From Ornithinimicrobium flavum (GTDB lineage Bacteria > Actinomycetota > Actinomycetes > Actinomycetales > Dermatophilaceae), in contig NZ_CP038213.1 of assembly GCF_004526345.1 (NCBI RefSeq), forward strand, positions 248,001 to 312,000: DNA of 64,000 bases, in the 5' to 3' direction. How positions within the stretch are numbered: position 1 is the stretch's first letter; each line of letters starts with the position of its first letter. Below, one piece after another: positions 222 through 43,239 of this stretch. The position numbers were made by a program, and so were the translations under genes. The notes below the pieces were generated by a model that saw only the letters and a program-made list of their open reading frames with translations, made no database searches and was not told the DNA's origin.

Positions 222-916
222 TGGTCCGGCTGCTCCTGGTCGACGACCAGCCGCTGCTGCTGCAGGGCTTCTCCATGATCCTGTCGACCGAGCCGGACCT
301 GCAGGTCGTGGGCCAGGTGGGAGATGGTCAGCAGGCGCTGGACGCCATCGAGCCGCTGCGCCCCGACGTGGTGCTCATGGACGTGCAGATGCCCGTGCTC
401 GACGGCATCGAAGCGACCCGCCGCATCGTGGCCGACCACCCCGACGTCAAGGTCGTCATCCTGACGACCTTCGACCACGACGACTACATCTTCGACGCCC
501 TCGAGGCCGGGGCCAGCGGCTTCCTGCTCATGAACGCCGACCCCGACGACCTCGTCGACGCCGTCCGGGCCGCCGCCGACGGCCACGCCCTGCTCTCGCC
601 CGAGGTGACGATCCGGGTCCTGCGCCGGATGGCGCGCGGCGACGGCGCGGGGGACCGGCCGGGGGGCGGGACCACCGGTGAGGAGGACGGCATACCTCTG
701 CCCCAGCTCACCGGGCGCGAGCGGGAGGTGCTGGCGCTGATGGCCCGCGGGCTGTCCAACGCCGAGATCGCCGCCGAGGCGTTCGTCGGCGAGGCGACCG
801 TCAAGACGCACGTCTCGAACGTCCTGGCCAAGCTCGGGGTCCGCGACCGGGTCCAGGCCGTCATCGCCGCCTACGACTCCGGGCTGGTGCTCCCGGAGGG
901 CCGCCACGGCCGCTGA
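221..916 (+). CDS. LuxR/NarL-family response regulator with atypical receiver
   Basis: The protein is a two-domain regulator. The receiver domain (residues ~1-120) has the acidic pair in LLLVDDQ and the phospho-acceptor Asp in VLMDVQMP. The LuxR helix-turn-helix (~160-230) is LTGREREVLALMARGLSNAEIA followed by ATVKTHVSNVLAKLGV. The conserved Lys of the receiver, normally in a GYLLKD-type motif, is replaced: this protein reads GFLLMNADP. That residue normally contacts the phosphoryl group, so phosphorylation response may be altered. The ATG at 221 is chosen because it overlaps the kinase stop; a GTG lies one codon upstream. It probably regulates the ABC exporter genes just downstream. Confidence 0.9.
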   Translation: MVRLLLVDDQPLLLQGFSMILSTEPDLQVVGQVGDGQQALDAIEPLRPDVVLMDVQMPVLDGIEATRRIVADHPDVKVVILTTFDHDDYIFDALEAGASGFLLMNADPDDLVDAVRAAADGHALLSPEVTIRVLRRMARGDGAGDRPGGGTTGEEDGIPLPQLTGREREVLALMARGLSNAEIAAEAFVGEATVKTHVSNVLAKLGVRDRVQAVIAAYDSGLVLPEGRHGR

Positions 917-1023
917 GCCGTGAGGCTCTCCCTCCTGCGGGGGAGGGCGCAATCACCTGGTCGGCCGATGCGGGCCGGCTCGCCCCCCGTCTAGCGTGGC
1001 ACCCACGACACCGAGGAGGAATC

Positions 1024-1908
1024 GTGCTCGAGCTGCAGCAGCTGACCCGCAGGTACGGCGACCACGTCGCCGTCGACGCCGCCAGCTTCACCGTCCCGCA
1101 GGGACAGATGGTCGGGTTCGTCGGCGGCAACGGCGCCGGCAAGACCACGACCATGCGGATGATCATGGGCGTCCTGGCCCCCACCTCCGGGGAGGTGCTC
1201 TGGGACGGCGAGCCCCTGACCCGGGCCGACCGCAGCCGGTTCGGCTACATGCCGGAGGAGCGGGGTCTCTACCCCAAGCAGCAGGTGCTGGACCAGCTGA
1301 CCTATCTGGGGCAGCTGCACGGGATGTCCCGTGCGGCCGCCCGCGACCGGTCCGCCGACCTGCTGACCCGCTTCGGCCTCGGTGAGCGCTTCAGGAGCAA
1401 GCTCGAGGAGCTCTCGCTCGGCAACCAGCAGCGCGCCCAGATCATCGCCTCGGTCCTGGGCGACCCCAAGATGCTCGTGCTCGACGAGCCGTTCAGCGGG
1501 CTGGACCCCGCGGCGGTCGACCAGATGAGCGAGCTCCTGCGCGAGCACACCGTCCGCGGGGTGCCCGTCCTCTTCAGCTCCCACCAGCTGGACCTGGTGG
1601 ACCGGCTCTGCGACGCGATCGTCGTCCTCCACGAGGGCAAGGTCGTGGCGCGCGGCACCTCCGAGCAGCTGCGCGCGAACGCCCCGCTGCGCTACCGCCT
1701 CACCATGGGGCAGGACACCGGGTGGGTGCGGAACGTCCCGGGGATCACCGTCGTGGACCTCGACGGCCCCAGCGTGCTGTTCGAGCCCGAGGACGAGCAG
1801 CTGGCCGAGCGGCTGCTCACCGACGCCGTCGCCCGAGGAGGGGTCCGGGAGTTCAGCCGGATGCGTCCCACCCTGTCCGAGATCTACCGAGAGGTGGCCG
1901 TCGCATGA
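1024..1908 (+). CDS. ABC transporter ATP-binding protein (NatA-like)
   Basis: This is a nucleotide-binding subunit of 294 residues, membrane-associated on the cytoplasmic face. Walker A is GGNGAGKTT, the signature is LSLGNQQRAQ and Walker B with catalytic Glu is MLVLDEPFSGLDP. The C-terminal ~80 residues match the extension typical of ABC-2 drug or sodium exporters. The GTG start at 1024 has a good Shine-Dalgarno (GAGGAGG) 6 bases upstream. The stop overlaps the permease start as ATGA. The substrate is unknown. The preceding two-component pair suggests induction by an envelope or drug signal. Confidence 0.9.
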   Translation: MLELQQLTRRYGDHVAVDAASFTVPQGQMVGFVGGNGAGKTTTMRMIMGVLAPTSGEVLWDGEPLTRADRSRFGYMPEERGLYPKQQVLDQLTYLGQLHGMSRAAARDRSADLLTRFGLGERFRSKLEELSLGNQQRAQIIASVLGDPKMLVLDEPFSGLDPAAVDQMSELLREHTVRGVPVLFSSHQLDLVDRLCDAIVVLHEGKVVARGTSEQLRANAPLRYRLTMGQDTGWVRNVPGITVVDLDGPSVLFEPEDEQLAERLLTDAVARGGVREFSRMRPTLSEIYREVAVA

Positions 1909-3176
1909 GCACTCTCACCGACCGTTCCGCAGGCACGTCGACCGGCGGGGCCGAGCGCACCGCCGGACCCGGCCCCTCCCGCCCCGAGCAGCGCACCACC
2001 CGTCGCGCCGCCTGGGCACTCGTCGCCGGCCGCGAGATCACCGTCAAGCTGCGCGACCGCAACTTCCTCATCGGCACGGCCCTCACGCTGGTCCTGCTGG
2101 TGGGCGCGATGCTGCTCCCGCAGCTGTTCACCGGGGGGAGCTCCAGCTATGAGGTCGCCGTGACCGACGGGGACGGCGCGGCCGTCGTCGAGCAGGCGCA
2201 GGGTCTCCTCCAGCTCGAGGAGCCGGAGGGCACCGTGACGGCGACGACCGTCCCGGACCGGGGCGCCGCCGAGGCGCAGGTGCGCGACGGGGACGTCGAC
2301 GCGGCCCTCGTCCAGGGCGAGGCCGGGTGGGAGATGGTCACCGACGGGGAGCCCTCGTCGGGGCTCACCAGCCTGCTGACCGACACCGTGCGGAGCTCGG
2401 CGATGGCCGAGAACGCCGCGGCGGCCGGCACCACCGTCGAGGAGCTCACGGCCGGCACGACCCTCACGCCGGTGGACCTGTCCGAGGCCGAGGGGGGTAT
2501 GCCGTCGTTCGTCAAGTTCATCCTCGGCTTCGTCTTCGCCTTCCTCTTCTACATGACCTCGATCATGTTCGGCTACCAGATCGCCAACAGCGTCGTGGAG
2601 GAGAAGGCCAACCGGATCGTCGAGATCCTGGCCGCGAAGATCCCGGTGCGCCAGCTGCTCCTGGGCAAGGTCCTGGGCAATACCGCGATCGCCTTCGGGC
2701 AGATCGCGCTCATCGCCGCCGTCTCGCTCGTCGGGCTGACCTTCATCGACCTCGACGTCGCGCTGCCGGGTCTGGCGCAGGCCATCGGCTGGTACGTCCC
2801 CTTCTTCGTCCTGGGCTTCCTGGCCCTCGCCTGCGTCTGGGCCGCCTCGGGCGCCCTGGCCTCGCGCACGGAGGACGTGCAGTCCACGTCCATGCCGCTG
2901 ACGATGCTGCTTGTCATCCTCTTCATCGCCTCGATCAACGTGGAGGGGCAGGTGCGGGAGATCCTGTCCTTCGTGCCGCTGGCCTCGACCTTCCTCATGC
3001 CGATGCGCATCATCGAGGGCGGGACCGAGCTGTGGGAGCCGATCCTGGCGCTCGTGCTGGTGCTGGCCTTCTGCGCGCTGACGATCTGGCTGGGTGCCCG
3101 GCTCTACGAGCGGGCGCTGCTGCACACCTCCGGCAGCCTGACCTGGCGCAAGGCCATGACCCTGCGGGCCGACTGA
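1905..3176 (+). CDS. ABC-2 type permease (NatB-like)
   Basis: The permease has 423 residues and partners the ATPase encoded immediately before it. One N-terminal membrane segment follows the motif REITVKLRDRNFLIGTA. A large extracytoplasmic domain (~residues 80-230) comes next, then five or six membrane segments in the C-terminal half, including the stretch around SIMFGYQIANSVVEEKANRIVEIL. This layout (single TM, big outer loop, TM cluster) is that of the ABC2_membrane_3/NatB family. The ATG at 1905 is chosen because it overlaps the ATPase stop by four bases. Confidence 0.88.
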   Translation: MSTLTDRSAGTSTGGAERTAGPGPSRPEQRTTRRAAWALVAGREITVKLRDRNFLIGTALTLVLLVGAMLLPQLFTGGSSSYEVAVTDGDGAAVVEQAQGLLQLEEPEGTVTATTVPDRGAAEAQVRDGDVDAALVQGEAGWEMVTDGEPSSGLTSLLTDTVRSSAMAENAAAAGTTVEELTAGTTLTPVDLSEAEGGMPSFVKFILGFVFAFLFYMTSIMFGYQIANSVVEEKANRIVEILAAKIPVRQLLLGKVLGNTAIAFGQIALIAAVSLVGLTFIDLDVALPGLAQAIGWYVPFFVLGFLALACVWAASGALASRTEDVQSTSMPLTMLLVILFIASINVEGQVREILSFVPLASTFLMPMRIIEGGTELWEPILALVLVLAFCALTIWLGARLYERALLHTSGSLTWRKAMTLRAD

Positions 3177-4282: not shown

Positions 4283-5110
4283 GTGCCGACTCCGCACCTC
4301 ATCACCTCCCCGGCCAACCCCCGCCTCAAGGCGCTCGCGGCCCTGCGGCGCCGACGCACCCGCGAGCAGGAGCGACGCACCCTGGTGGAGGGGTATGACG
4401 AGCTGGGCCTGGCCCTCGAGGCGGGGGTCGTGCCGCAGACGCTCTTCTACTGCCCGGAGCTCATGGGCGGGGCGGCCCGGGCCGACGACCTGGTCGCCCG
4501 GGTGGGGGCGCTGGGTGGTGAGCTCGTGCGGCTGTCGCGGCCGGCCTTCGAGAAAGCGGCCTACCGGGAGGGGCCGGACGGCGTCCTCGCGGTGGTGCCC
4601 ACCGTCGACCGCCGGTGCGAGGACCTGACGGCCGGGCTCCCGGACGCCCCGCTGGTCCTGGTCTGCCAGGCGGTGGAGAAGCCCGGCAACCTCGGCGCGA
4701 TGCTGCGCACCGCCGACGCGGCCGGGGTGGACGCCGTCGTCGCCGCTGACCCCGTCACCGACTGGGGCAACCCCAACACCGTGCGCGCCTCGAAGGGGAC
4801 GGTCTTCTCGGTCCCGGTCGCCAGCGACCCCACCGCGGTGACGCTGGCGTGGCTGCGGGAGCGCGGCATACCCCTGGTCGCGGCGACCCCCGACACCGAG
4901 GTCACGCACACCGAGGTGGACTACCGCGGACCGGTCGCCATCGTCGTCGGCACGGAGAAGACCGGCCTGACCGCGGAGGTGCTGACGGCTGCGCAGCACC
5001 GGGTTCGGATCCCCATGGTGGGGCTGGCTAACTCGCTCAACGTGGCCACCAGCGCCGCCGTGATCGTCTACGAGGCCGTGCGCCAGCGAGCCGCCGATCC
5101 ACGCCCCTGA
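4283..5110 (+). CDS. TrmH/SpoU-family RNA 2'-O-methyltransferase
   Basis: The protein is a SPOUT (knotted) methyltransferase of about 275 residues. The N-terminal substrate-binding domain begins with ITSPANPRLKALAALRRRRTR. The C-terminal SpoU domain carries the three family motifs: EKPGNLGAMLRTADAAG (motif 1), VAIVVGTEKTGLT (motif 2) and VRIPMVGLANSLNVATSAAV (motif 3), which form the S-adenosylmethionine site. It should methylate a ribose 2'-OH in rRNA or tRNA. The GTG at 4283 is preferred over a GTG at 4265 because homologues usually begin close to the ITSPANPR motif; neither has a strong ribosome site. Confidence 0.87.
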   Translation: MPTPHLITSPANPRLKALAALRRRRTREQERRTLVEGYDELGLALEAGVVPQTLFYCPELMGGAARADDLVARVGALGGELVRLSRPAFEKAAYREGPDGVLAVVPTVDRRCEDLTAGLPDAPLVLVCQAVEKPGNLGAMLRTADAAGVDAVVAADPVTDWGNPNTVRASKGTVFSVPVASDPTAVTLAWLRERGIPLVAATPDTEVTHTEVDYRGPVAIVVGTEKTGLTAEVLTAAQHRVRIPMVGLANSLNVATSAAVIVYEAVRQRAADPRP

Positions 5111-8944: not shown

Positions 8945-9107
8945 TACGCCGAGTCCTGCCGTGCGTCCGAGGTTGTCCCTATCACCACACCTCAGCAGGA
9001 GCGGGGGAACCACCGTCGGCACCTGGTCCCACAGGTGCCTCGGGGCGCTCGACCCTCACGGGTCGGAGGTTCTCCACCTCGAGCCCGACAGCTCACCTCG
9101 TAGGCGT
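8945..9107 (+). ncRNA. ydaO/yuaA c-di-AMP riboswitch
   Basis: The conserved blocks of this class appear in order: GCCGAGTCCTGCCG near 8949, GCAGGAGCGGGGGAACCAC near 8995-9014, then CCCGACAGCTCACCTCGTAGGC near 9085-9106 just before the coding region. In actinobacteria this class binds cyclic di-AMP and commonly precedes genes for cell-wall hydrolases. That fits the NlpC/P60 gene whose ribosome site starts a few bases later. It would switch off expression when c-di-AMP is high. Confidence 0.9.
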
Positions 9108-9121
9108 TGGAGGAATTCTTG

Positions 9122-10021
9122 ATGCAGCTCACCACCCCTGGTCGCCACCGGCGTCCCGGTCGCCTCAGTGCGGCCAGCACCTCCCTGACCCGTACCGCCG
9201 CCGTCGCGGCCGCCTCCTCCGGCCTCCTCGCCGGCACTGCCGTGAGTGCCGGGGCCCAGCCCGTGACCGAGGACGCCCCCGTGAAGGCCGTCGAGGCGCT
9301 CGTGCGTCTCGGTGAGACCGTCCAGGCGGACCGCACCCTCCTCGCCGACCGGCCGGCCAAGGCCGTCCCGGCCCCGGAGACCTCCCCGGCCGACTTCGGC
9401 ACGAGCGGCTTCACCGCCTTCGCCGCCGTGGTGGACGTGGAGACCGAGACCGAGACCGAGGCTCCGGCCGAGGCCACCGCGGAGGCCGAGGCCACCGCGG
9501 AGGCCGAGACCGCCGGGTCTGCGGCCCAGACCCAGGCCCAGGCCGCGGTCGAGACCCGCACCCCGACCACCGCCAGCCGCACCGAGGAGCGCACCGCTCC
9601 CGTGCAGCAGCAGCGGGTCGCCACCCAGCCCGCGGTACAGCCGGCCCCCCAGCCGGCCCCGCAGCCGGTGGCCCCGTCCTACGGCGGTGCCGTGGGTATC
9701 GCCTCCGGCCTGATGGGCATCCCCTACGCCTGGGGCAGCTCCGACCCCGCCGTCGGCTTCGACTGCTCGGGCTTCACCAGCTACGTCTACGCCCAGCTCG
9801 GCATCTCGCTGCCGCACAAGGCGTCGCTGCAGCAGGCCGTTGTCACCCCGGTGAGCAACCCGCAGCCCGGTGACCTCGTGTTCTTCGGCAACCCCGCCTG
9901 GCACGTCGGCATCTACGCCGGCAACGGCATGATCTACCAGGCCACCAACCCCGGCTCGGTGTCCAACTACATGCCCATCTCCAGCATCTACGGCTCGGTC
10001 TCCGGCTACGGCCGCCCCTGA
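9122..10021 (+). CDS. Secreted NlpC/P60 cell-wall endopeptidase
   Basis: The 299-residue exported protein has a twin-Arg-containing, long N-terminus and a signal peptide ending near GTAVSAGAQP. An acidic, Ala/Glu/Thr-rich low-complexity linker follows (~105-150), then a proline/glutamine stretch. The C-terminal ~110 residues form the NlpC/P60 domain, with catalytic Cys in GFDCSGFTSYVYAQLG and His in AWHVGIYAGNGMIYQA. It should cut γ-D-Glu-diaminopimelate-type peptide bonds in peptidoglycan. The start at 9122 has the ribosome site TTGGAGG. Expression is probably controlled by the c-di-AMP riboswitch directly upstream. Confidence 0.92.
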   Translation: MQLTTPGRHRRPGRLSAASTSLTRTAAVAAASSGLLAGTAVSAGAQPVTEDAPVKAVEALVRLGETVQADRTLLADRPAKAVPAPETSPADFGTSGFTAFAAVVDVETETETEAPAEATAEAEATAEAETAGSAAQTQAQAAVETRTPTTASRTEERTAPVQQQRVATQPAVQPAPQPAPQPVAPSYGGAVGIASGLMGIPYAWGSSDPAVGFDCSGFTSYVYAQLGISLPHKASLQQAVVTPVSNPQPGDLVFFGNPAWHVGIYAGNGMIYQATNPGSVSNYMPISSIYGSVSGYGRP

Positions 10022-10745: not shown

Positions 10746-11113
10746 GACGACACCTCCCCGGGGGAGCCGATCCGCGCCTCGCCGAGGGCCAGGACCGTCA
10801 GCCCGTCGACGTCGTCGAGGATCTCCCCGAGCAGCCACCAGGCCCGGCCGTCGCTGGCCGCGAGCCGACCGGCGTCCTCCCACACCAGGGCCACCCGCTC
10901 CGAGCCCCAGATCTGCGGCAGGTCGCGCAGGGCGTCGACCATGGCGTCGAGGTTGGTCGCGGCGTTGCCCGGCAGCCGCAGCGCCCGGGCCAGCTCGGCC
11001 TGGGCCGGGCGCAGACCGGGGTCGGGCGGACTGGCCGCGCGGGCGACGGCATACCCGTGGTCGTGGAGGTGGGCCAGGACGGGGGTGAGCTGGTCGGCCG
11101 GGAGCAGGTGCAT
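10742..11113 (-). CDS. Barstar-family RNase inhibitor
   Basis: The 123-residue cytoplasmic protein has the barstar fold pattern: an early α/β part, then NAATNLDAMVDALRDLPQ, where the helix normally plugs the RNase active site. WEDAGRLAASDGRAWWLLGEILDDV follows. Its start codon overlaps the purB stop (TGATG) and its stop overlaps the RNase start (ATGA), so inhibitor is made before and together with the toxin. Family membership is clear by motif, and inhibition of the adjacent RNase is inferred from context. Confidence 0.85.
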   Translation of the reverse strand: MHLLPADQLTPVLAHLHDHGYAVARAASPPDPGLRPAQAELARALRLPGNAATNLDAMVDALRDLPQIWGSERVALVWEDAGRLAASDGRAWWLLGEILDDVDGLTVLALGEARIGSPGEVSS

Positions 11114-12944: not shown

Positions 12945-14949
12945 ACGGGCAAGGTAGCCGATCGTCCGCCCTCGCGCCGCCGGAAGCGAGGGTGGCGCCG
13001 AGGTCGACCGCGGTCCAGCCGGCGGCGGTGGCGGGACGGTGGGTGACCAGCACCACCACCCCGGTCCCCGGATCCCGTGAGGCCAGGAGACCCCCCATCG
13101 CCCGCTCGGCGGTGGCGTCGTCGAGATGGGCCGTGGGCTCGTCGAGGAGCACGACGGGCCGTCCGGAGACCAGGGCCCGGGCCATCGACAACCGGGCGCG
13201 CTCACCCCCGGACAGCCCGCCGAGGCGGGTGTCCAGTCCCTCCGGGAGGGTGGCGAACCAGCGGCCCAGGTCGACCGCGTCCAGGGCGGCGACGAGGTCC
13301 GCGTCGCGGGCGTGAGGGGCCGCGAGGGCCAGGTTGGCGCGCACCGTCCCGGCGAAGGCGTGCGGCTCGTCGTCCACGAGGGCGACCAGCGCGCGGACCT
13401 GCTGCAGGTCGAGGTCGAGGACGTCGGTGCCGTCGACCTCGTAGCGACCGACCGCCGGGTCCAGCGACCGGGCGAGGACCGCCAGGGCGGTGGACTTGCC
13501 GACGCCGTTGGGGCCGGTGAGCGCCACGCGGCTGCCCGGGGGGAGGTCCAGGTCGAGGGGGTGGAGGTCGAGGGGCTGGTCGACCCGGCGGGCGTCAAGG
13601 CCCTGGAGGTCGCCGGGTCTGTCGTCGCCATCGACGGCGGGCGGCGGGGCCGGCCAGTGCGCCCCCGTGCGGTCCAGGCGCAGGGAGGGCGTGCCCGGGC
13701 CGTGGCCTCCCACCTCAGGGGTCCGGTGGTCGGTGGGGGCGGTGCCCCGCCGGCCCGCCGTCAGCTGGACCGATGCTGCTGCCGCGACGGCGGGGGTGCG
13801 CCCCAGCACCTGCTCCAGGCGGTGACCGGCGGCGCGGGCGCGGGCGCGGGCGCCGGCGATGTCGGCCGCGCCGACCCAGGTGTCGGCCAGGGCCATCGGG
13901 ATCAGGGCCACCATCGCCGCCACCGGCGCGGTGATCGCGTCGGCGGTCAGCGCGCGCCAGGTGAGGCCCACGACGGCGGCCACCGTGCCCGCGACGACCA
14001 TCCACAGCAGGGCCAGCGCGGTGGCGCGGGCGGTGATGAGGCGCTGCTCCGCCCGACGCTGCGCCTGCTCGGCCTGCGCCACCGGTGCCAGGAGGTGGCT
14101 GCGGTCCGCCCGAAGCCCGGTGACGGCCTGGACAGCCAGCAGCCGGGACACCAGGGCGGTGGTGCGGTGCTGCACCTCGCCGCGACGGGCGACCGACTCG
14201 GCCTGGGCCACCTGCTCGGCGACGCGGTCGGCGGCGGCGACCACGGCGACGAGGGCCCCGCCGAGGATGAGGACCACCCCGGCCGACGGCACGTGCCAGG
14301 CGGCCAGGACGACCCCGACGGTGGTGGCGATCACCGCGGACCACGCCGGGACGACGACCCGGACCTGCTCGTCGACCACGTCGTCCAGGTCGCGGACGAC
14401 CGCGGTGAGCACCTCCCCACGGCTGCGCCGCCCGAGCGCCGCGGGGGTGAGCGGGACGAGCCGGGCGAAGACCTCCGCCCGCCGGGCCGCCAGCTCGCCC
14501 AGGGCCGACTCGTGACTCACCAGCCGCTCGGCATACCGGAGCACCGGGCGGAAGATGCCGAACGCCCGCACCCCCACGATCGCGACCAGGAGGGTGAGGA
14601 TGACCGGCATCGTCGAGGCCTGGACGATCAGCCAGCCCGAGGTGGCCGTCAGCGCCACCCCGCACCCGACCGAGGCCCCGCCCAGGAGGCAGGCCACCAC
14701 CAGCCCGCGGCGCCCGGTCGGCAGCGGCAGCGGCTCGACCTGCCCGGGGACGTGCGCGCGCTCTCCGTGGGCGGATGGGTGCTCTTCCGGACCGGGCGGG
14801 CGCTCGCCGGAAATGCGGGGGTGCTCAGCCGGACCGGAGGCATCCACCCCATCGATGTGCACGGCTCTTGTGTCACATTCATCGCCCGGACGATGAATGT
14901 GGCACAAGAGTGCTGCACCACCATCCTCGGCCGCGGTGATCCGCCACAC
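12937..14949 (-). CDS. cydC: CydC subunit of the CydDC ABC transporter
   Basis: This is a fused membrane/ATPase ABC subunit. Six membrane segments run from about residue 85, and the ATPase domain has Walker A GPNGVGKSTA, signature LSGGERARLSMA and Walker B PVVLLDEPTAHLDD. With CydD it exports cysteine or glutathione and is needed to assemble cytochrome bd. The first ~75 residues are unusual: they are read through a 20-bp-arm inverted repeat (14865-14910) and have no CydC character. The open frame starts at 14949, but a GTG nearer GRRGLVVACLLGG could be the working start. It overlaps the altered end of cydD. Confidence 0.85.
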   Translation of the reverse strand: MWRITAAEDGGAALLCHIHRPGDECDTRAVHIDGVDASGPAEHPRISGERPPGPEEHPSAHGERAHVPGQVEPLPLPTGRRGLVVACLLGGASVGCGVALTATSGWLIVQASTMPVILTLLVAIVGVRAFGIFRPVLRYAERLVSHESALGELAARRAEVFARLVPLTPAALGRRSRGEVLTAVVRDLDDVVDEQVRVVVPAWSAVIATTVGVVLAAWHVPSAGVVLILGGALVAVVAAADRVAEQVAQAESVARRGEVQHRTTALVSRLLAVQAVTGLRADRSHLLAPVAQAEQAQRRAEQRLITARATALALLWMVVAGTVAAVVGLTWRALTADAITAPVAAMVALIPMALADTWVGAADIAGARARARAAGHRLEQVLGRTPAVAAAASVQLTAGRRGTAPTDHRTPEVGGHGPGTPSLRLDRTGAHWPAPPPAVDGDDRPGDLQGLDARRVDQPLDLHPLDLDLPPGSRVALTGPNGVGKSTALAVLARSLDPAVGRYEVDGTDVLDLDLQQVRALVALVDDEPHAFAGTVRANLALAAPHARDADLVAALDAVDLGRWFATLPEGLDTRLGGLSGGERARLSMARALVSGRPVVLLDEPTAHLDDATAERAMGGLLASRDPGTGVVVLVTHRPATAAGWTAVDLGATLASGGARADDRLPCPYG

Positions 14950-16640: not shown

Positions 16641-17756
16641 TCAGGAGTCGGCCGGCTCCCGCACGGCCGCCCGGGTCTCCTGCGTCACCGCGGCGTGGTG
16701 CACCCCCGTCGGTATGTGGTGCCCCGAGACCCGCCGGCGGAAGGTCCAGTAGGTGAAGACGGTGTAGAGCAGGACGACGGGCACGAAGATCACCGCGACC
16801 CAGGTCATGATCGTCAGCGTCAGCTCGGTCGAGGAGGCGTTGTCCTTGGTCAGCGACAGGCCGTCCGCGAGCGTGGTGGGCATGACGTCCGGGAAGAGCG
16901 CGGCGAACAGCGAGGAGGTCGCCAGGGCGATGGCGCCGAAGGTGCCGGCGAAGCCCCAGCCCTCCCGCCCGCGCCAGGTCAGGAGCAGGCCGCCGACGAG
17001 GGCGAGCGCGGCCAGGATCGCCAGCAGCCAGGACAGCGTGCTGCCGGTGCGGACGTGCAGGATGCCCAGCCACACCACGGCCAGCGCCGCGCTCACGACC
17101 CCGGTCCGCAGCGCCAGCGCCCGCGCGTCGTGGCGCAGCTGCCCGTCGGTCTTGAGGGAGACGAAGATCGCCCCGTGGGTGAGGAAGAGCGTGAGGGTGA
17201 CCAGCCCGCCGAGCAGGGCGACGGGGTTGAGCAGGCTCCAGAAGCCGCCGACGTACTCCATCTGCGCGTCGATCGGCACGCCGGACACGATGTTGGAGAA
17301 GGCCACGCCCCACAGCAGGGCAGGCAGGAGGGACCCGAGCACGATCATCGCGTCCATTCGGGCCCGCCAGGCGCGGGAGTCGACCTTGCCGCGGTACTCC
17401 AGGCCGATGCCGCGGATGATCAGGCCCACGAGGATGAGCAGGAGCGGCAGGTAGAAGCCGGAGAAGAGGGTCGCGTACCAGTGCGGGAACGCGGCGAAGA
17501 TCGCGCCGCCGGCGGTCAGCAGCCACACCTCGTTGCCGTCCCAGAAGGGGCCGATCGCCGAGAGCATCTGCCGCCTGCGGGTCTCGCCGGACCAGGGACC
17601 GCCGGCCGCGGGGAGAGCCTCGCGGGCGGCATACCCCTCCTCGTCACGCCCGAGCACCGGCAGCAGCATCCCCACGCCGTAGTCGAAGCCCTCGAGGCAG
17701 AAGTAGCCGATCCACAGCACCGCGATGAGGACGAACCAGATCGTCGTCAGTTCCAT
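16641..17756 (-). CDS. cydB: Cytochrome bd oxidase subunit II
   Basis: The 371-residue integral membrane protein has eight or nine helices. Family motifs are CLEGFDYGVGMLLP near the N-terminus and GPFWDGNEVWLLTAGGAIFAAFP. It pairs with CydA to form the quinol oxidase that reduces oxygen to water without proton pumping. The ATG at 17756 begins MELTTIWFVLIAVLWIGYF, the standard CydB start. The gene lies 38 bases after cydA and runs directly into cydD, giving the usual cydABDC order. Confidence 0.95.
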   Translation of the reverse strand: MELTTIWFVLIAVLWIGYFCLEGFDYGVGMLLPVLGRDEEGYAAREALPAAGGPWSGETRRRQMLSAIGPFWDGNEVWLLTAGGAIFAAFPHWYATLFSGFYLPLLLILVGLIIRGIGLEYRGKVDSRAWRARMDAMIVLGSLLPALLWGVAFSNIVSGVPIDAQMEYVGGFWSLLNPVALLGGLVTLTLFLTHGAIFVSLKTDGQLRHDARALALRTGVVSAALAVVWLGILHVRTGSTLSWLLAILAALALVGGLLLTWRGREGWGFAGTFGAIALATSSLFAALFPDVMPTTLADGLSLTKDNASSTELTLTIMTWVAVIFVPVVLLYTVFTYWTFRRRVSGHHIPTGVHHAAVTQETRAAVREPADS

Positions 17757-17794
17757 GTTCCACCAGATCCTTCGGGTATGCCGTCCGCGGCGGC

Positions 17795-20761: not shown

Positions 20762-21778
20762 TCAGACCGGGTAGCCGTCCGGGTTGGCCTGCTGCCAGCG
20801 CCACGTGTCGGCGCACATGTCCTCCACCGAGCGGGTCGCCCGCCACCCCAGCTCGCGCTCGGCCAGCGTGGGGTCGGCGTAGGACGCGGCGACGTCACCG
20901 GGTCGGCGGTCGACGACCTCGTAGGGGACCGGGCGACCGCTGGCGCGCTCGAAGGCGTGCACCAGCTCGAGCACCGAGGTGCCGCGCCCGGTGCCGAGGT
21001 TCCACACCGACAGCGGACGGTCGTGGGCGCTGATCCGGTCCAGCGCGGCCAGGTGGCCGGCGGCGAGGTCCTCGACGTGGATGTAGTCGCGCACGCCCGT
21101 GCCGTCCGGGGTGTCGTAGTCGTCGCCGAAGACCGACAGCTTCTCCCGCCGGCCGACGGCGACCTGGGCCAGGTAGGGCATGAGGTTGTTGGGGACGTCG
21201 GAGGGGTCCTCGCCGATCCGGCCGCTGGGGTGCGAGCCGACGGGGTTGAAGTAGCGCAGCAGCGCGACCCGCAGCTCGGGGTGGGCGACGACGGCGTCCC
21301 GCAGGATCTGCTCGTTCATCACCTTGGTCCAGCCGTAGGGGTTGGTCGCCGACGTCGGCAGCTGCTCGGTCATCGGCACCGGGGCGTCCGCCCCGTACAC
21401 GGTGGCGCTGGAGGAGAAGACCAGGTGCGGCACGGCATACCTGACCATGGTCTCGACCACCGCGAGCGTGGCGCCGAGGTTGTTGCGGTAGTAGGCGATC
21501 GGCCGCTCCACCGACTCGCCCACGGCCTTGTAGGCGGCGAAGTGGACGACCGCGTCGAACCGGCCTCGGTCCATCAGGTCGCCGAGGCGCTCGACGTCGC
21601 CGACGTCGAAGGACTCCAGGGGTATGTCGCGCCCCGCCAGCTCGCTCACCCGCGCCATGGCGCTCGGGCGGCTGTTGGAGAAGTCGTCGACGACGCTCAC
21701 CTCGTGGCCGGCCCGGGCCAGCTGGACGACGGTGTGCGACCCGATGTAGCCGGCTCCGCCGGTGACGAGGACGCGCAT
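20762..21778 (-). CDS. galE: UDP-glucose 4-epimerase
   Basis: The 338-residue short-chain dehydrogenase-type enzyme interconverts UDP-glucose and UDP-galactose for cell-surface sugars and galactose use. The NAD-binding motif is MRVLVTGGAGYIGSHTV. The catalytic Ser region is FSSSATVYG, and the Tyr/Lys pair is in NPYGWTKVMNEQ. The length is normal. It stands alone between blaI and the ABC exporter genes. Two GGTATG hexamers fall in this gene and use the rare codons ATA and TAT. Confidence 0.95.
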   Translation of the reverse strand: MRVLVTGGAGYIGSHTVVQLARAGHEVSVVDDFSNSRPSAMARVSELAGRDIPLESFDVGDVERLGDLMDRGRFDAVVHFAAYKAVGESVERPIAYYRNNLGATLAVVETMVRYAVPHLVFSSSATVYGADAPVPMTEQLPTSATNPYGWTKVMNEQILRDAVVAHPELRVALLRYFNPVGSHPSGRIGEDPSDVPNNLMPYLAQVAVGRREKLSVFGDDYDTPDGTGVRDYIHVEDLAAGHLAALDRISAHDRPLSVWNLGTGRGTSVLELVHAFERASGRPVPYEVVDRRPGDVAASYADPTLAERELGWRATRSVEDMCADTWRWQQANPDGYPV

Positions 21779-26284: not shown

Positions 26285-29200
26285 CGGATCTCCTCCCGGT
26301 AGCTGCGGTCCAGCGCCTGCCGCCGCACCCGCGCCGCCAGCACCAGGGTGAGCGCGAGCACCAGCACGCCACCGGCCCCCACGAGCACCAGCCAGGGGGT
26401 CGCCTCCAGCCGCAGACGGGTCGGAAGGCTGAGCCCACCCGGGCGGATGCTCGTGGACGCCAGCTCGGGGACCACGGCGGTGCCGACCAGCCAGCCCGCG
26501 AGCAGGCCGAAGGCGACCGCCGCCAGCACCACCCCGGCCAGCTCCAGGGCCCGCGAGCGGGCCTGGGCGGCGGGCGGCATACCCAGGGCCCGCAGCACGG
26601 CGACCTCGGGCCGGCGGGCCGACAGCAGGGTCGCGGCCACGGCCGCGATGCCGGTGAGGGCGAGCAGCACCGCCCCGGCCGAGGCGACCCAGAAGACGAG
26701 CCGGGCGGCGCTGGTGGCGTCGGTGACCGCCACCGCGCCCGGCCCGGTCGCCCCGCGGAGGTCCTCCCGGGTGGAAAGGGCGGCGACGGCGGCCTGCGGG
26801 TCGCCCGCCGGGGTGGCCCACACCTGGCTCGGCCAGGGCAGGGTGCGCTGGTCGGCGACGAGGGCCCGGGCGAGGACACGACTGTCGGCGAGCGCCCCCA
26901 GCTCGCCGGTCTGACCGGGCACGGCGGGGACCAGGGTGGTGAGCCGGGCCGGCACGAGGCCCCCGGCGTAGGCCAGCTCGAAGTCGTCCCCCGGGCGCAG
27001 GGCGGCGGCGTCGGCGGCGGCCGCGGTGAGAGCCACCGGGACGCGCGCGGTGGGGGTCGGGGCCGTCGGGGCGGCGTCGAGGGCCAGGCCGCGGTCCTCC
27101 ACCCAGGTGAGGCCCGGGGCCACGACGAACTGCAGGCCCGTCTGACCCTGCAGGTCGGGAGCGCCGAGGGGCCCGCCCCGGGTCACCACCTCCAGGCGCC
27201 AGGTCGAGGACGAAGTGTCCAGGACGGGAGGTATGAAGGGCCGGTTCGACTCCTCCCCCTGGGACATGGACCAGGTCGTGCTGTCGCCGAAGACCTCCCA
27301 GACGATCCGGGCGTAGGGGTCCGCCACGGCCTCCGCCTCCGCGCGCGCCGGCGCCGCCTGCTCCGGCGTCGCGGCGTCGGTGCTCCCCCACGCGTCGCTG
27401 CCGTCCAGGAGGTCCCGACCGTCGGCGCGGACCGCCACGTCCAGGGCGAGGGTGACCCCCGGCCCGGCGCCGGAGACGTCGAGGACCACCGACTCCAGGG
27501 CCCACGACCGCTCCGGGTCCAGGGGTATGCCGAGCCCGCCGGTCGTGGTGCCGGGGGTGGCTGCAGCGCCGCTCAGGGTGTCCTCGTCGTAGGTGACCTC
27601 CGGGCCGGTGGTCGGCAGCGGCTGCGTCCGCAGCAGGTGGGTGAGGCCGCTGTCCGTGTCGCGCACGAGGACGCTCACCGTCACCTCACGCCCGGCACGG
27701 AGGGCGGCGACCTCCTGGTCGAGGGCGGCACGGGCCTCCTCCTCGGGCGTCGGGACCGAGTCGGGCGGCAGGCCCCCGGAGAGGTCGATGCCCAGCTCGT
27801 CGAGGCGCTCCCGCCGCTCCAGGAGCGACGGCGCCAGGGAGTCGAGACGGGAGAGCTGCCAGGCGTCCAGGTCGAGCTCCGCCTCGATCCGCACCTCCAG
27901 CTCGGCCGTGCCGGGGGGCACGGCGACCGACCCGTCCGGCAGCGGCGTCCCGTCGGGGTCGAGGAGCTGGTCGAGGCCGTCCGGGACGAGGGACTCGTCC
28001 GCCACCGCCGGTGTCACCGCGCGCAGGGCGCCCGAGCTCCCGAGGACGAGGGGCACCTGGAGGTCGCCCACCCGGGCGTTGGGCTCGAGCCAGACGAGGG
28101 CGGCCCCGGTGACCGAGGGGTCGGTGGTGACGTCGGGGGCGGCCGGGGGGACGACACCGGGGGTGTCCTGGACGAGAGGCCGGACGACGTCCGCCCGGAC
28201 GGGGGCCCCGCGGGAGACGGCGCCGAGATCCTCGCGCAGCTGGGCGGAGGTGCCGGCGTAGAGGGCGGCCAGGGTGGTGGCCCCGACGGCGAGGACGGTG
28301 AGGACGACGGGCACGGCATACACCGACAGGTGGCGGCTGACCTGCGCGGAGGCCAGGTGGCCCGTGGCGGTGCGGGCGGGTCGGGTCGCGAGCTCCAGGG
28401 CGCGGGTGAGGGGGCCCAGCAGGGCCAGCGCGACGACGGCGGAGGCGGCCAGCAGCAGGGCGGGGGCGGCGCCGGCGACCAGGTCGGTGGCCAGGGCGCC
28501 GTCCGGGCGGGCCACGAGCGGTGAGCCCGCCCGGCGCAGCTGCCACCAGGACAGGGCGGCGGCCCCGAGGACGAGGACGACGGTCGCCAGGGCCGTGGCG
28601 GCCCGGGCGCGACCGGAGAGGTCGGCCCCGGAACGGCCGCCGGCGAGCCGCCGGGCCTGACCGACCGCCACCACCGCGAGCACGACGAGGATGCCGAGCA
28701 GCACCAGACCGGTCACCGCGAGCACGGACGTGCCCACGAGCTCGCCACCGGGGACGAGCTGCATACCGGCCCGGGCCAGCAGGCCGCCGAGGGTGGCGCC
28801 CACGACCGCGACCGCCGCCGACTCGACCAGACCGGTCGCCAGGACCTGACCTCGGCCTGCGCCGCGGGCCACCAGGAGCTGCACCTGCGGCTCCCGGGTC
28901 GAGGTGAGCAGGCGCGCGAGCTGCACCACGGCGAGGCCGGTGACCAGCACCAGGACCGAGAGCGGGATGACGCCGAGGGCGCGGGCGGTGGCCAGGTTGG
29001 TGGCGGCGGTCGCGGCGGTCGGGGCCAGGTCGCCGTCGACGGTGATGCCGCGCACGCTGACCCCCTGGACGTCCCGCAGGTCCTCCCGGAGCTCCTCCGC
29101 GCTGCTCGACAGACCGGCCAGGTCGTCGGGGGTGATGCTCGAGGGGTCGGGCTGCACGGGCCAGCGGACGAAGGGGTCGCCGACCTGGCGCACGAGGTCC

Positions 29201-30398: not shown

Positions 30399-32065
30399 AT
30401 GGCTGGCCACCTGAAGCGCTACCGGGAGATCGCCAGCGTCCTGGCGCGGCACGGGCTGCACGCCACGGCGGTGCAGGCCGGGCTGGGCCGGTGGCTCCCC
30501 CACCCGCCGGGCGGGGCGGGGCCCGACCCCGGCGCGGGTGGTGACCGGGACGTGCTTCCCGGGCTGCTCGTCGAGACCTTCGAGGAGCCGGCACCACCTT
30601 CATCAAGCTCGGCCAGCTGATCTCCACCCGCCCCGACGTCTTTCCCCCGGCCTACTGCCGCGCCTTCGCCCGGCTCACCGACTCCACCCAGCCGGTCCCG
30701 TTCGAGCGGCTGGCCACGGTGGTCCATGACGACTTCGGCGCCACGGTGGAGGAGCTCTACTCCTGGTTCGAGCCCGTCCCGGTCGCCACCGCCTCCATCG
30801 GCCAGGCCCATCGCGCCCGGCTGCACGACGGTCGCCCGGTCGTCGTCAAGATCCGCAAGCCGGGGGTGGTCGAGGAGGTCCACGACGACCTCGAGATCCT
30901 CAAGAACCTTGCCGGCCACCTGGCCCGCAACTCCCAGCTGCTGGCCGACATCGATCTGGTCGGGCTGGTGGACGAGTTCTCCCGCTCGCTGCGCTCCGAG
31001 CTCGACTACCTGACCGAGGCCAGGGCGTGCGAGGAGATCGGTGAGAACTTCCTGGGGGTGCCGGGTGTGTCCACATACCCTGGATCCACTGGGAGACCAC
31101 CACATCCCGGGTGCTGACCATGGAGGAGCTGTCCGGGATCCGGATCGACGACGTCGCCGCCCTGGACGCGTCCGGGATCGACCGCCCGGACCTCGCCCAC
31201 CGAGCGGTCGAGGTGCTGATCCGGATGGTGTTCGAGGACGGGGTCTTCCATGCCGACCCCCACGCCGGCAACCTTTTCGTCGAGGCAGACGGCACCATCG
31301 GCGTCATCGACTTCGGGATGGTCGGGCGGATCAGCCCGGAGATGCGCCGTCAGTTCGCCAGGGGTCGTGGCGCTGGTCCAGCAGGACACCGACGGGCTCC
31401 TACGCACCCTGCTCGACATCGCCCCTCCGCGGGGCCCCCTGGACCGGCGGCGGATGCGCAGCGAGGTCGCCCGGATCACCAGCTGGCTCGACGGGCGGGC
31501 CCTGGCCGACATCCACCTCGACCGGGTGGCCAATCAGATCTTCTCGGTGGTGCAGCACCACCGGCTCTCGCTGCCGCCCGAGGTCGTCCAGCTGTTCCGG
31601 ATGCTCATCATCGTCGACGGGCTGGGCCTGCGGATCGACCCCGGCTTCGACATCACCACGGTGCTGCACCCGTATGCCCGTCAGCTCATCCAGCAGCAGC
31701 TGGGCCCCGCCCAGGTGGCCGGGCGCCTGCGGGACGCGACGGTGGCGGCGGCCCAGCTCGGCGTGGACCTGCCCACCTACGCCCGGCAGCTGCTCGACCG
31801 GATCGACGGCGGGGGCGTGGACGTGACGATCCGCACCGCCGAGCTGGAGCCGCTGGTGGGGCGGATGGAGCGCACCGGCGACCGGGTCGTCGCCGCGCTC
31901 GTGGTGGCGGCCATGATCACCGGTGGCACCAACGTGCTCGTGGCCTACAAGGACCGGCTGGGCCGGTATGCCGGTCCGCTGGTCGCCGGAGGCGGGGCCG
32001 CGCTCACCGTGGGGAGCGCCTACCTCGCGTGGACCGGTCGCCCTCGCCGGATCAGGCCCCGCTGA
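30399..32065 (+). pseudogene. ABC1/UbiB-family kinase-like protein, broken by three frameshifts
   Basis: Joined pieces give an atypical kinase of about 555 residues. They include GTTFIKLGQLISTRPD (signature), ASIGQAHRARLHDGRPVVVKI (nucleotide loop and Lys), GVFHADPHAGNLFVE and GVIDFGMVGR (catalytic and metal sites), and two C-terminal membrane segments near VAALVVAAMITGGTNVLVA. The frame changes near 30590, 31070 and 31360. Intact members support ubiquinone-like lipid synthesis or lipid transport. Three breaks in one gene suggest decay, although single-base errors occur elsewhere in this window. Confidence 0.82.
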
Positions 32066-38563: not shown

Positions 38564-38899
38564 TCAGCTGTCGACCGGCACTGCGAGCGAGGTATGCCGC
38601 CAGATGAGACCGTCGCGGAGCACGAACGAGCCGACGACCCGCACCGTGTCACCGGCGACGTCTTGAACGACGTCGTAAAGAAGCGTGTCCTCCGTGCGGC
38701 ATACCTCGGAGGCCATGATGACTCGCCGTGGCGGTGTGACGGCCTCGGTGAAAAGTTCCAAGATGGCACCACCCGTGACTGCGCCCCCTTCGTGGAGGAT
38801 AACCCCCTCGGGGTGATAGCGGCTCGCGAGTCCAGCAGCGTCGCCGCGTTCGAGCAGAGCAACTTGCTCAGCCAGGAGCGTTCCTGTGTTCATGGCCAT
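38564..38899 (-). CDS. SnoaL-like / NTF2-fold protein
   Basis: The 111-residue protein starts MAMNTGTLLAEQVALLERGD, the helix-turn of NTF2-like proteins. Strands follow: YHPEGVILHEGG, VTPPRRVIMASEV, LYDVVQDVAGDTVRVVGSFVLRDGLIWRHTSL. Members are small-molecule isomerases, hydrolases or binding domains; no catalytic set can be assigned. A second ATG two codons in may be the true start. It contains two GGTATGCCG 9-mers, like the native chromosome genes to its left. Confidence 0.75.
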   Translation of the reverse strand: MAMNTGTLLAEQVALLERGDAAGLASRYHPEGVILHEGGAVTGGAILELFTEAVTPPRRVIMASEVCRTEDTLLYDVVQDVAGDTVRVVGSFVLRDGLIWRHTSLAVPVDS

Positions 38900-41070: not shown

Positions 41071-41120
41071 GTCCTCGACGGTACGGAGCACCAGGTGCCG
41101 TTCGCGCGCCGCCGCCATCA

Positions 41121-41133
41121 ATCCTTCGGTTGA
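41121..41133 (-). promoter_or_regulatory. Shared operator before the DUF2871/ACT operon
   Basis: TCAACCGAAGGAT (minus strand), part of a 19-base stretch matching the MMPL promoter with two mismatches. It is an imperfect palindrome CAACC-GAA-GGATT, 51 bases upstream of the start codon. A likely binding site for the LuxR-type regulator encoded next door. Confidence 0.6.
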
Positions 41134-41362
41134 GTCCTGCGTCCTTAAACAGAGCGGGCGCGCTGCCACATGGTCGTCGTCAGGGGGATCTGGGGGCAGG
41201 AGCTCAACTCCTTCGCGCGCGCGGCCCCGACACGGGGGGTCACCTCGCCCTTTGGCCGCGACGCCAGCACACGGTCCGATCTATTCCAGGACGCGGAGTA
41301 GGTGGACGAGGCGTCCTCCGCGTGCGGGTGAGGCGCTCATGGACGCCGCGGCGTCCTGCTGC

Positions 41363-42004
41363 TCAGTCGAGCAGGCCGGCCCCGCGCGCGGCTGCGACCG
41401 CGGCGGTGCGGTTGTCGACGCCCAGCTTGCCGAAGACGTGGTTGAGGTGCGTCTTGACCGTGGCCTCGCTGACGACGAGCCGGCGGGCGAGATCCCTGTT
41501 GGACAGCCCGTGCGCGACCAGGCCGAGGACCTCGAGCTCACGGGCCGACAGCTCGGTGCGACGCACCCGCATGGCGGCCACGACCCGGCTGGTCAGGTGT
41601 GGGCCCAGCACGGTCTCACCGCGGGCGGCGGACTGGATCGCGGCGACGATGTCGGCCGGGGCCGCGTCCTTGAGCAGGTACCCCGCCGCGCCGGCCTCCA
41701 CGGCTCGCACCAGGTCGGAGTCGTGGTCGTAGGTCGTCAGGATCAGGACGGCCGTGTCCACCGCCCGGGTCACCTGGACCCCGTCCGGCCCGTCCCCCAG
41801 GCGCAGGTCGCACAGGACCACGTCAGGTGTCAGCTCCGCGGCCAGGCGCACCGCCTCCGTCCCGTCGGCGGCCTCGCCGACCACGAGCAGACCGGGTTGC
41901 ACCGACAGCAGTGCTGTCAGTCCGGCGCGCACGACCGGGTGGTCGTCCACGACGAGCACCGACACAGGGGTATGCCGTTGCGCGCCGGTGTCCGGGCCGC
42001 TCAC
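41363..42004 (-). CDS. LuxR/NarL-family response regulator
   Basis: The receiver domain has VVDDHP near the start, phospho-acceptor Asp in DVVLCDLRLGD and the conserved Lys in GYLLKDAAP. The C-terminal LuxR helix-turn-helix is LSARELEVLGLVAHGLSNRDLA, then ATVKTHLNHVFGKLGVDN. The GTG at 42004 is used because it overlaps the stop of the kinase gene as GTGA. It probably binds the shared motif found 51 bases upstream of both the DUF2871 gene and the MMPL exporter gene. Confidence 0.93.
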   Translation of the reverse strand: MSGPDTGAQRHTPVSVLVVDDHPVVRAGLTALLSVQPGLLVVGEAADGTEAVRLAAELTPDVVLCDLRLGDGPDGVQVTRAVDTAVLILTTYDHDSDLVRAVEAGAAGYLLKDAAPADIVAAIQSAARGETVLGPHLTSRVVAAMRVRRTELSARELEVLGLVAHGLSNRDLARRLVVSEATVKTHLNHVFGKLGVDNRTAAVAAARGAGLLD

Positions 42005-43239
42005 CGCCACCCTCCCCCCGCGCTGCGCGGCAGGTGCGCGCTCAGCGCGGTGCCGCGCCCTGGCTCGGACTCGACGTCCAGCCCACCACCAAGCTCCAGG
42101 AGCCGTTCCCGGGAGGCCCGCAGCCCGTACCCCCCACCCGCCGGGCTGCCCTGCGCAGCGCCCAGCGTCGCGACGTCGAACCCGCGCCCGTCGTCCACGA
42201 CGTCCAGGCGCACCGAGTCCTCGGCCTCTGCCAGCGTGAGCACGACCGAGGTTGCCCGTGCGTGCTGCCGGACGTTGGCCAGGGCGGACTGGGCCGTGCG
42301 CAGCAGGGCGACCTCTATCCCCGGTGGGAGCGAGGTGACCTCCCCCTCGACCCGGACCTCGGTCCGCACACCGCTCTCCTGCTCCAAGCGGGCGCTGATG
42401 CGACCGAGGGCGTCGACGAGCCCGGACTCCAGCGGGGTCGGGGCGAGGGCCCCGACGACACGGCGGGCCTCCTGCAGGTGCTCGGCCGCGCTGGCCTCGA
42501 TCTGTCCCAGGAGGCGGGTCCTGGCCGCCGGCTCCCCGGTGGCGGCACCGGCCCGGGCGAGCAGGAGGATGGAGGAGAACCCCTGGGCGAGGGTGTCGTG
42601 GATGTCGCGCGAGAGCCGTGTCCGTTCGGACAGAACCCCTGCGGCGTGCTGGGTCTGGGCCAGCTCGGCGTGCAGCTCCTCGGCCTCCGCCTGCGCAGCG
42701 ACGAGGGAGGTCACGAGCTGCTCGCGCTGCTGGCTGTCACGCACGATGACCTGCAGGCCACGGGAGAGCGCCACCGCGAAGACTCCGCCGATGACCGGCC
42801 CGAGGACCGCGGCGGTCGACCAGCCCTCGGCGTGACCGCCGCGACCGACGACCACCGCCAGGACCAGCACCGACACGACGACCGCGTGGACCAGCGGCAG
42901 CAGGTGGCCGGCGAGCAACCACAGGGAGAAGGCGACCCACACCATCTCCGGGGACGCGACTACCGTGAGCAGCCACACGCCCACCAGCCCCAGGAGCCAC
43001 CACCCGCCGACGGGCAGTCCCCGCCCGGGGCGGCCCCGCCCGTCCGCGAGGTCGCGACCGGACGCGGCACGCCGCGCGCCCACGGCATACCAGGCGAGGA
43101 AGAGGGCGGTGCTTCCCAGGAGCGGACCGGCGGCGTCGCCGGCCCCCAGCCCGCGGCCGACACCGACCACGACCAGGACCGCGAGCAGCAGGTGCTGCAC
43201 ACCCGCCAGGCGACGGATCATCACGCGGGTTCGGCTCAC
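42001..43239 (-). CDS. Sensor histidine kinase, NarL/DesK type
   Basis: The 412-residue kinase has five or six N-terminal membrane helices and no large outer domain. A dimerisation helix follows, with the phospho-accepting His in ERTRLSRDIHDTLAQGFSSI (HisKA_3). The ATPase has ALANVRQHARATSV (N box) and DVVDDGRGFD plus YGLRASRERLLELGG (G boxes). Membrane-embedded sensing of lipids, drugs or membrane stress is likely by architecture. It starts at GTG 43239, four bases from the end of the MMPL gene, so exporter, kinase and regulator may share one transcript. Confidence 0.92.
   Translation of the reverse strand: MSRTRVMIRRLAGVQHLLLAVLVVVGVGRGLGAGDAAGPLLGSTALFLAWYAVGARRAASGRDLADGRGRPGRGLPVGGWWLLGLVGVWLLTVVASPEMVWVAFSLWLLAGHLLPLVHAVVVSVLVLAVVVGRGGHAEGWSTAAVLGPVIGGVFAVALSRGLQVIVRDSQQREQLVTSLVAAQAEAEELHAELAQTQHAAGVLSERTRLSRDIHDTLAQGFSSILLLARAGAATGEPAARTRLLGQIEASAAEHLQEARRVVGALAPTPLESGLVDALGRISARLEQESGVRTEVRVEGEVTSLPPGIEVALLRTAQSALANVRQHARATSVVLTLAEAEDSVRLDVVDDGRGFDVATLGAAQGSPAGGGYGLRASRERLLELGGGLDVESEPGRGTALSAHLPRSAGGGWR

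Follow-up and report, generated by a model that had tools for sequence, protein, structure and literature searches.

The window analysed here is a stretch of 64,000 nucleotides (bases 248,001-312,000) from a single-contig genome of 3,712,913 bases belonging to the Ornithinimicrobium group. It carries a nine-nucleotide word, GGTATGCCG, with the core GTATGCCG, which probably is a self-recognition tag of natural transformation, similar to a DNA uptake sequence (DUS) and acting via ComEA/ComEC and Tad/Flp pili. The word has the over-representation, strand equality, depletion from mobile DNA and lineage dialects of an uptake sequence, and the uptake machinery is encoded in the genomes, including those poor in the word. 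Among the four roles offered by an earlier note on this DNA, namely an uptake sequence, a Chi-like recombination site, a chromosome-organising site and a methylation target, an uptake-type sequence fits best.

Genome-wide excess and codon use

The whole 3.71-Mb chromosome contains 735 copies of GGTATGCCG, 378 on the forward and 357 on the reverse strand, whereas the control word, GGTATGCCG read backwards, occurs 2 + 4 = 6 times. In a genome sample of 464 kb, composed of 20 sampled stretches and the window, GGTATGCCG ranks first among all 9-mers for over-representation (z-score), with 89 copies against 3.3 expected from a third-order Markov model. The copies in the sample are preceded by G in 57% and followed by T in 40% of cases, and the local form of the word in this genome is roughly GGGTATGCCGT.

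The excess persists when the encoded proteins are held constant. The called genes of the sample contain 62 copies, against 3.0 expected when codons are redrawn by genome usage with the proteins fixed, and 5.4 when synonymous codons are shuffled within genes. These copies are read in all six frames, 40 in sense and 22 in antisense orientation, as the earlier note had claimed for both strands and every codon frame. Many peptides contribute, including GMP, GYA/RYA, VCR, GIP, AYP and RHT. The count is far from the codon-preserving expectation and does not come from one amino-acid pair, the two outcomes that the note had named as speaking against a selected DNA signal; the codon-preserving nulls and the genome-wide excess support such a signal. 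The further claim that the word forces the use of rare codons holds for ATA (1.4% of isoleucine codons) and TAT (6.6% of tyrosine codons), but GGT, with 14.2% of glycine codons, is only moderately rare. GTA and TGT have shares of 1.3% and 7.5% among their synonyms.

A codon, amino-acid or mutational bias without function is hardly credible as the origin of the word. High-GC genomes hold many over-used words, but this one is about 20-fold above the codon- and protein-preserving null in six frames, and is the top 9-mer of its own genome. It is also the top 8-mer, or overlaps the top 8-mer, in five of seven samples from word-rich genomes. Among the genomes of the family Dermatophilaceae described below, the 112 word-rich ones hold it at least four times as often as the backwards word, by the cut-off that defines them, and many of them more than 100 times as often. 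A codon or amino-acid cause was rejected on the codon-preserving nulls.

The share of GGTATGCCG copies outside called genes is somewhat above the share of DNA there (27 of 89 against 20%, p = 0.017), and the value for the 8-mer is 31 of 113 (p = 0.058). Both shares are rough, because the gene caller is of a simple codon-score type and misses genes.

The fifteen positions listed previously for the window are all exact matches to GGTATGCCG, compared with a mean of 0.40 and a maximum of 3 copies in 100 shuffles:

688..696, minus strand, GGTATGCCG copy
2496..2504, plus strand, GGTATGCCG copy
4864..4872, minus strand, GGTATGCCG copy
11047..11055, minus strand, GGTATGCCG copy outside called genes, just downstream of purB
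14529..14537, minus strand, GGTATGCCG copy in cydC
17627..17635, minus strand, GGTATGCCG copy
17775..17783, plus strand, GGTATGCCG copy
21433..21441, minus strand, GGTATGCCG copy in galE
26575..26583, minus strand, GGTATGCCG copy
27524..27532, plus strand, GGTATGCCG copy
31965..31973, plus strand, GGTATGCCG copy
38591..38599, plus strand, GGTATGCCG copy
38697..38705, minus strand, GGTATGCCG copy
41969..41977, plus strand, GGTATGCCG copy
43083..43091, minus strand, GGTATGCCG copy in a sensor-histidine-kinase-like gene (family matches under curated cut-offs)

The shorter GGTATG occurs 33 times in the window, which leaves the 18 occurrences besides the full words that had been counted by eye. The reported absence of the word past 43.1 kb was likewise confirmed, with no GGTATGCCG in 43,092-64,000.

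Strand, turnover and foreign DNA

The word is distributed equally between strands, with 41,589 forward and 41,504 reverse copies in 186 family genomes. In the 464-kb sample, the leading strand holds 47 copies and the lagging strand 42 (p = 0.67), with dnaA at the contig start and the terminus assumed to be opposite. The spacing is near random and Poisson-like, with a variance-to-mean ratio of 0.88 per 10 kb. The highest density, approximately one per kb, was found in genome G141 (78 core words in 80 kb), and the density of the uptake signal sequence (USS) of Haemophilus is in this range.

Chi sites, FtsK orienting polar sequences (KOPS) and SpoIIIE recognition sequences (SRS) are short words over-represented genome-wide, as is the word studied here. 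They are strand-oriented and tied to RecBCD/AddAB or FtsK, whereas the word has no strand orientation, and no recC or FtsK-type link was found for it. A site bound by a nucleoid protein, or by a protein of chromosome organisation or segregation, is unlikely. The even, Poisson-like scatter along the chromosome would suit such a site, but the copy number differs widely within a genus (5 in G084 and 1602 in G085) and there is no replichore orientation. In contrast, the 8-mer CGGGGGAG of the same genome is split 74:11, as a segregation signal should be. CGGGGGAG is the most leading-strand-biased 8-mer of the sample (L001-L020) and was selected as such; it may be a segregation (KOPS-like) word of this genome or may reflect a gene-orientation effect. 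The comparison of 47:42 with 74:11 speaks against a polar signal of the FtsK type, and this form of the chromosome-organising role was rejected.

A Chi-like recombination or nuclease-attenuation site, read by RecBCD or by the AdnAB helicase-nuclease, is quite improbable. In its favour, the word is genome-wide, non-palindromic and kept out of the foreign DNA that was analysed, recC is present in G000, and Chi words vary between lineages. However, recC was detected in 50 of the 112 word-rich genomes and not found in the other 62, compared with 37 of the 67 word-poor ones (p = 0.22; one 19-bit match, in G010, was excluded). Within genus g4, recC is present in the word-poor G008 and has no match in the word-rich G005, G006 and G007. 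This distribution makes RecBCD an unlikely reader of the word, and a RecBCD Chi site was rejected on it and on the absence of a leading-strand excess.

The turnover of sites was followed around purB, across 21 species that belong to the same genus as the window, 20 of them word-bearing and one, G113, word-poor. Pairs were counted in both directions and are non-independent, and 60 control words were used. A copy in one word-bearing species was found intact in a second one in 357 of 1240 aligned pairs, compared with 1239 of 5381 for the controls. At pair identities of 82-90%, the word is intact in 100 of 213 pairs and the controls in 72 of 240; at 78-82%, the values are 205 of 616 and 246 of 932; and at 70-78%, 48 of 407 and 113 of 816 (25 control words). 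In the word-poor G113, one of 41 aligned copies is intact, compared with 48 of 259 for the controls. Since sites turn over between species, it is apparently the density that is kept while single sites come and go, unlike the sites of regulators. A regulatory protein site, expected upstream of genes and at conserved positions, is not supported: 62 of the 89 sampled copies are inside called genes, and 357 of the 1240 pairs are intact.

The distribution of DUS dialects has reportedly been used to find integrated elements (PMC7371117). The end of the window is free of the core word and contains transposase genes:

45700..64000, word-free stretch with transposase genes (0 GTATGCCG in 18.3 kb, compared with 17 in the first 45.7 kb)
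50921-52288, IS1380 transposase gene
55777-57015, IS110 transposase gene
57515-58915, IS1380 transposase gene
60778-62085, ISL3 transposase gene
63027-63818, partial IS110 match, under the curated cut-off

At the mean density of the genome, 20.9 kb without a copy would occur with a probability of 0.016, and therefore the absence from the window end alone is modest evidence. A 25.4-kb insertion in G137 contains no core words, with 7.6 expected at the density of that genome, and a 14.0-kb insertion in G577 contains one, with 9.5 expected. Tetrasphaera phage TJE1 (58% GC, 49 kb) has two core words, the same number as backwards words, with 0.9 expected by chance. The word is missing or nearly so from the mobile and phage DNA examined (window end, two insertions and one phage), although the numbers are small.

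The insertions interrupt tadA of a competence-type Tad cluster, by 14.0 kb in G577 (C1:414074-428086, L162/L163) and by 25.4 kb in G137 (C1:1774209-1799566, L160/L161); in G589, the same gene is broken by 34.8 kb (C23:366445-401202, L164/L165). The G577 insertion encodes a type III methyltransferase and, judged by eye, a large helicase-like open reading frame (ORF) and an IS110-like transposase. In at least 13 further genomes, tadA of cluster C is only partly in one piece, and some of these cases may be contig ends. Two Rfam Ms_AS-4 hits (56086-56167 and 63336-63417 of the window) are positioned antisense inside both IS110-type transposase genes, and therefore this actinobacterial small RNA family goes here with IS110 elements.

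Distribution in the Dermatophilaceae and variant words

The family set comprises 186 genomes of 53 genera, with 2 to 2,198 copies of the 9-mer per genome. By our cut-offs, which for the word-rich class include at least four times the backwards word, 112 genomes are word-rich, 67 word-poor and 7 intermediate, and 32 of the 53 genera have a word-rich member. The core common to word-rich members is GTATGCCG. Named members were obtained from a scan with a comEC alignment (best 80 loci) and belong to Ornithinimicrobium, Serinicoccus, Knoellia, Terrabacter, Terracoccus, Humibacillus, Intrasporangium, Phycicoccus, Flexivirga, Arsenicicoccus and Janibacter, which we take together to be the Dermatophilaceae in the sense of GTDB. 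In the 30 genomes behind the named loci, GTATGCCG was counted against its backwards control, and 16 of the 21 family members are rich in it. The counts are 1758 against 29 in O. tianjinense, 3277 against 276 in Knoellia remsis, 2444 against 54 in K. subterranea, 2614 against 80 in Phycicoccus elongatus, and 2542 against 379 in Flexivirga endophytica. They are 7 against 11 in Janibacter melonis, 18 against 12 in J. indicus, 38 against 29 in Janibacter sp. Soil728, 21 against 10 in Phycicoccus jejuensis, and 66 against 21 in Intrasporangium flavum. The remaining genomes, of eight Nocardioides and one Antribacter, are not rich in GTATGCCG.

Word-poor species occur within word-rich genera (G113, G008 and G084). 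This is compatible with a target of a methyltransferase or self-marking defence, in which the word would be kept since marked DNA is spared, as are the exclusion from the mobile DNA examined and the lineage specificity of the words. Such a target is nevertheless distinctly unlikely: an asymmetric word of 9-11 bp is long for known methyltransferase sites, which are more often avoided than enriched.

Clear enrichment outside the Dermatophilaceae is rare. In a class-wide draw of 394 genomes, eight of them from the family, our reading of the table gives G483 (170 copies against 27) as the sole non-family genome with more than 100 copies and more than four times the control; a few low-count genomes, such as G467 (44 against 6), also exceed the fourfold ratio. 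The genus of G483 (215 genomes) is by its inferred assignment Nocardioides, and its largest counts besides that of G483 are 466 against 59 in G681, 150 against 27 in G752, and 137 against 27 in G747, with milder cases in G607 (108 against 24) and G724 (97 against 17). In other families of the order, GTATGCCG reaches at most about 3.6 times the backwards word (32 genomes sampled).

The flanks of the core vary between lineages. The variant GTATGCCGCG occurs 40 times in 80 kb of G141; flank preferences are based on 7-96 sites per genome. A second form, GTATGGCG, is present in three genera; it was found 24 times in Flexivirga (1.7 expected), 10 times in G007, from the genus of Arsenicicoccus (1.0 expected), and 13 times in G167 (1.5 expected). 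An open ranking of all 8-mers enriched in at least three reading frames covered nine word-poor or Nocardioides samples and seven word-rich ones. Of the two word-rich samples not headed by the word or an overlapping 8-mer, G172 has it in third place and G086 outside the six listed.

In two of the word-poor samples, G052 and G065, CGAAGGGG or an overlapping neighbour was ranked top. The excess of CGAAGGGG was confirmed on stretches fetched later, with 15 copies against 4.9 expected in G052 and 23 against 5.1 in G065. Both genomes are probably Janibacter, judged by the shared word and by the lack of GTATGCCG seen in named Janibacter. Pooled with the discovery stretches, the word occurs 71 times against 13.6 expected, in six frames, with the consensus GGCGAAGGGGG and with both strands intermixed in most loci. 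The comEA-comEC locus was compared in 21 named records. In three named Janibacter, GTATGCCG is absent and CGAAGGGG occurs 9, 5 and 4 times, the first of them belonging to the discovery set; 15 word-rich records have 2-13 GTATGCCG and 0-2 CGAAGGGG; and GTATGCCG is also absent from P. jejuensis, an uncultured Phycicoccus and I. flavum, where CGAAGGGG is found once at most. Janibacter is thus without the family word, but has its own word, GGCGAAGGGGG, which behaves alike and is not recognisably related in sequence. The Janibacter word loci are L233-L237, L065, L079 and L087, from the two assigned and three named genomes.

A weaker and broader word, GTACGNCG, may be a related tag or may reflect codon context. 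It occurs 150 times in G084 (51.5 expected, all six frames) and 212 times on more sequence (75 expected), 167 times in G483 (44 expected), and 114 times in seven named Nocardioides loci (40 expected). It is not enriched in G000 (72 against 116). Its loci in Nocardioides and G084 are L223-L230, L037-L041 and the named Nocardioides loci. Two further candidates were rejected: GGATGCCG as a word of the P. jejuensis group, found 59 times against 15.5 in G153 and unconfirmed in G160 (6 against 3.5) and G588 (11 against 6.0), and CGTAGACC, found in the single genome G008 (29 against 6.0). In G113 (52 kb of genes) and I. flavum (51 kb), all six candidate words lack a significant excess, and no 8-mer stands out in the open ranking.

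Competence machinery and DNA uptake

In the genome of the window, the gene for ComEA (SLBB plus helix-hairpin-helix) adjoins that for ComEC, and the tad genes include two clusters, B and C, both of which encode a TadA-type ATPase. The genes for TadB, TadC, a pilin of the TadE family and another small protein resembling pilins are in cluster C. Micrococcus luteus similarly has comEA/comEC and two separate, distant tad clusters, both of which are required for its transformation (PMC4322843). On this likeness, an uptake tag read on or near the Tad pilus is proposed. The phrases "uptake sequence" and "sequence-specific" are absent from the same paper (PMC4322843).

Free DNA containing the word would be bound preferentially at the cell surface, where the word would be read on or near the Tad pilus. 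A Tad/Flp-type competence pilus would pull the tagged DNA in, and ComEA would hand it through ComEC, followed by recombination. Tagged alleles would enter more often, and therefore copies would pile up across the core genome and override codon preference, leaving foreign DNA without them. If the preference of the receptor shifts, the word would shift too. We infer all three elements of this scheme: the action in uptake, the pilus-borne receptor as reader, and the uptake bias as the spreading force.

In the Pasteurellaceae, the USS resembles the word in its 9-bp core, its density of about one per kb in the richest genomes and its lineage-specific forms. The USS belongs to another phylum, and its receptor is predicted to be a type IV minor pilin (PMC12616744). 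The DUS of Neisseriaceae (10-12 nt, receptor ComP) is, as described in PMC3630211, short, asymmetric, abundant and often intragenic, with dialects that share a core, and the word is similar in these respects. It differs in phylum and cell envelope, and in Janibacter the sequence of the word has no relation to GTATGCCG, unlike the DUS dialects. A classical type IV pilus was rejected as the uptake machine, since PilT is above the cut-off in two of the 186 family genomes, and no ComP-type receptor is therefore expected.

Several observations weigh against an uptake tag. The presence of com and tad genes tracks the word weakly. The presence of comEC in 180 of the 186 family genomes, with comEA next to it in all 34 loci examined, fits an uptake role, but nearly every word-poor genome has comEC, which is therefore not discriminating. 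Of eight word-poor genomes with tad loci read, seven have both clusters, at least partly. In favour of the tag, cluster C was scored as lost more often in word-poor genomes (11 of 61) than in word-rich ones (4 of 96; Fisher p = 0.005, shared ancestry ignored), among the 163 of 186 genomes with at least 90% completeness, of which six intermediate ones had no loss; the score is mostly of TadA alone, with TadB checked in 30 unevenly chosen genomes. Against it, the word-rich G117, G123, G073 and G074 are without cluster C, and tadA is interrupted in G137 and G577, with word counts not clearly lower in either group, which indicates either a recent loss or that the cluster is uninvolved. No receptor of the word was found, although Tad-type minor pilins are present in the loci read. 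ComEA was rejected as the discriminating receptor, because an alignment of 23 word-rich and 11 word-poor loci has no clear separating feature (two of the 11 are second copies from the same genomes, and one word-rich entry is truncated). The backwards word is intact in 58 of 114 aligned pairs, above the share of the word itself. Close inverted pairs, common for the DUS of Neisseria, are absent from the sample, with the nearest inverted pair 106 bp apart. GTACGNCG is mildly in excess in eight Streptomyces loci too (57 against 38). A literature search on family members and transformation gave no report of transformation in the Dermatophilaceae among the papers listed.

Since the machinery is retained in the majority of word-poor genomes, a change of the receptor or of the word, rather than of the whole apparatus, is likely, and Janibacter fits this. 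A third tad cluster, D, present in G000, G124, G085 and G141, was rejected as word-linked, because the word-rich G007, G577, G578 and G591 have no match to its ATPase. A plasmid search with TadA gave distant CpaF-type matches only, which were not used.

PMC12616744 attributes sequence-specific DNA uptake to just two families, both of them Gram-negative. The literature was searched for the 9-mer as well as for uptake sequences of Actinobacteria, Gram-positives, Intrasporangiaceae and the named genera, and no such report was among the papers listed, with most subscription journals and preprints outside the scope of the search; the papers listed for the 9-mer look unrelated by their titles. More tentatively than for the word itself, such uptake may also exist in Actinomycetota, in the Dermatophilaceae (GTATGCCG, GTATGSCG), in Janibacter (GGCGAAGGGGG) and perhaps in Nocardioides and one species of Dermatophilaceae (GTACGNCG). 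It would have fast-switching words that jump to unrelated ones, a candidate receptor on the Tad/Flp pilus and an origin independent of the Gram-negative systems. If true, a Gram-positive case would demonstrate the independent evolution of DNA self-tagging, and the many natural gains, losses and switches of words could be used for finding the receptor. In practice, the word could be added to donor DNA to transform actinobacteria of soil, sea and wastewater. Even with another role, a family-wide signal that reaches about 3,300 copies in one genome calls for an explanation.

Some features of the loci were observed in passing. The comEC of G084 (L053, 7066-9191) aligns in two reading frames, a possible frameshift, and cluster C of the same genome (L152) has no recognisable TadE/TadF. 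Locus L144 (8900-12949) encodes a 1349-residue FHA plus FtsK/SpoIIIE protein divergent from tadA of cluster C, and tblastn detected a relative among the fetched tad loci in 10 of the 17 genomes examined, in one of them as a short match. In the window, a c-di-AMP riboswitch is located at 8973-9121 on the plus strand, at the start of the ORF 9107-10021.

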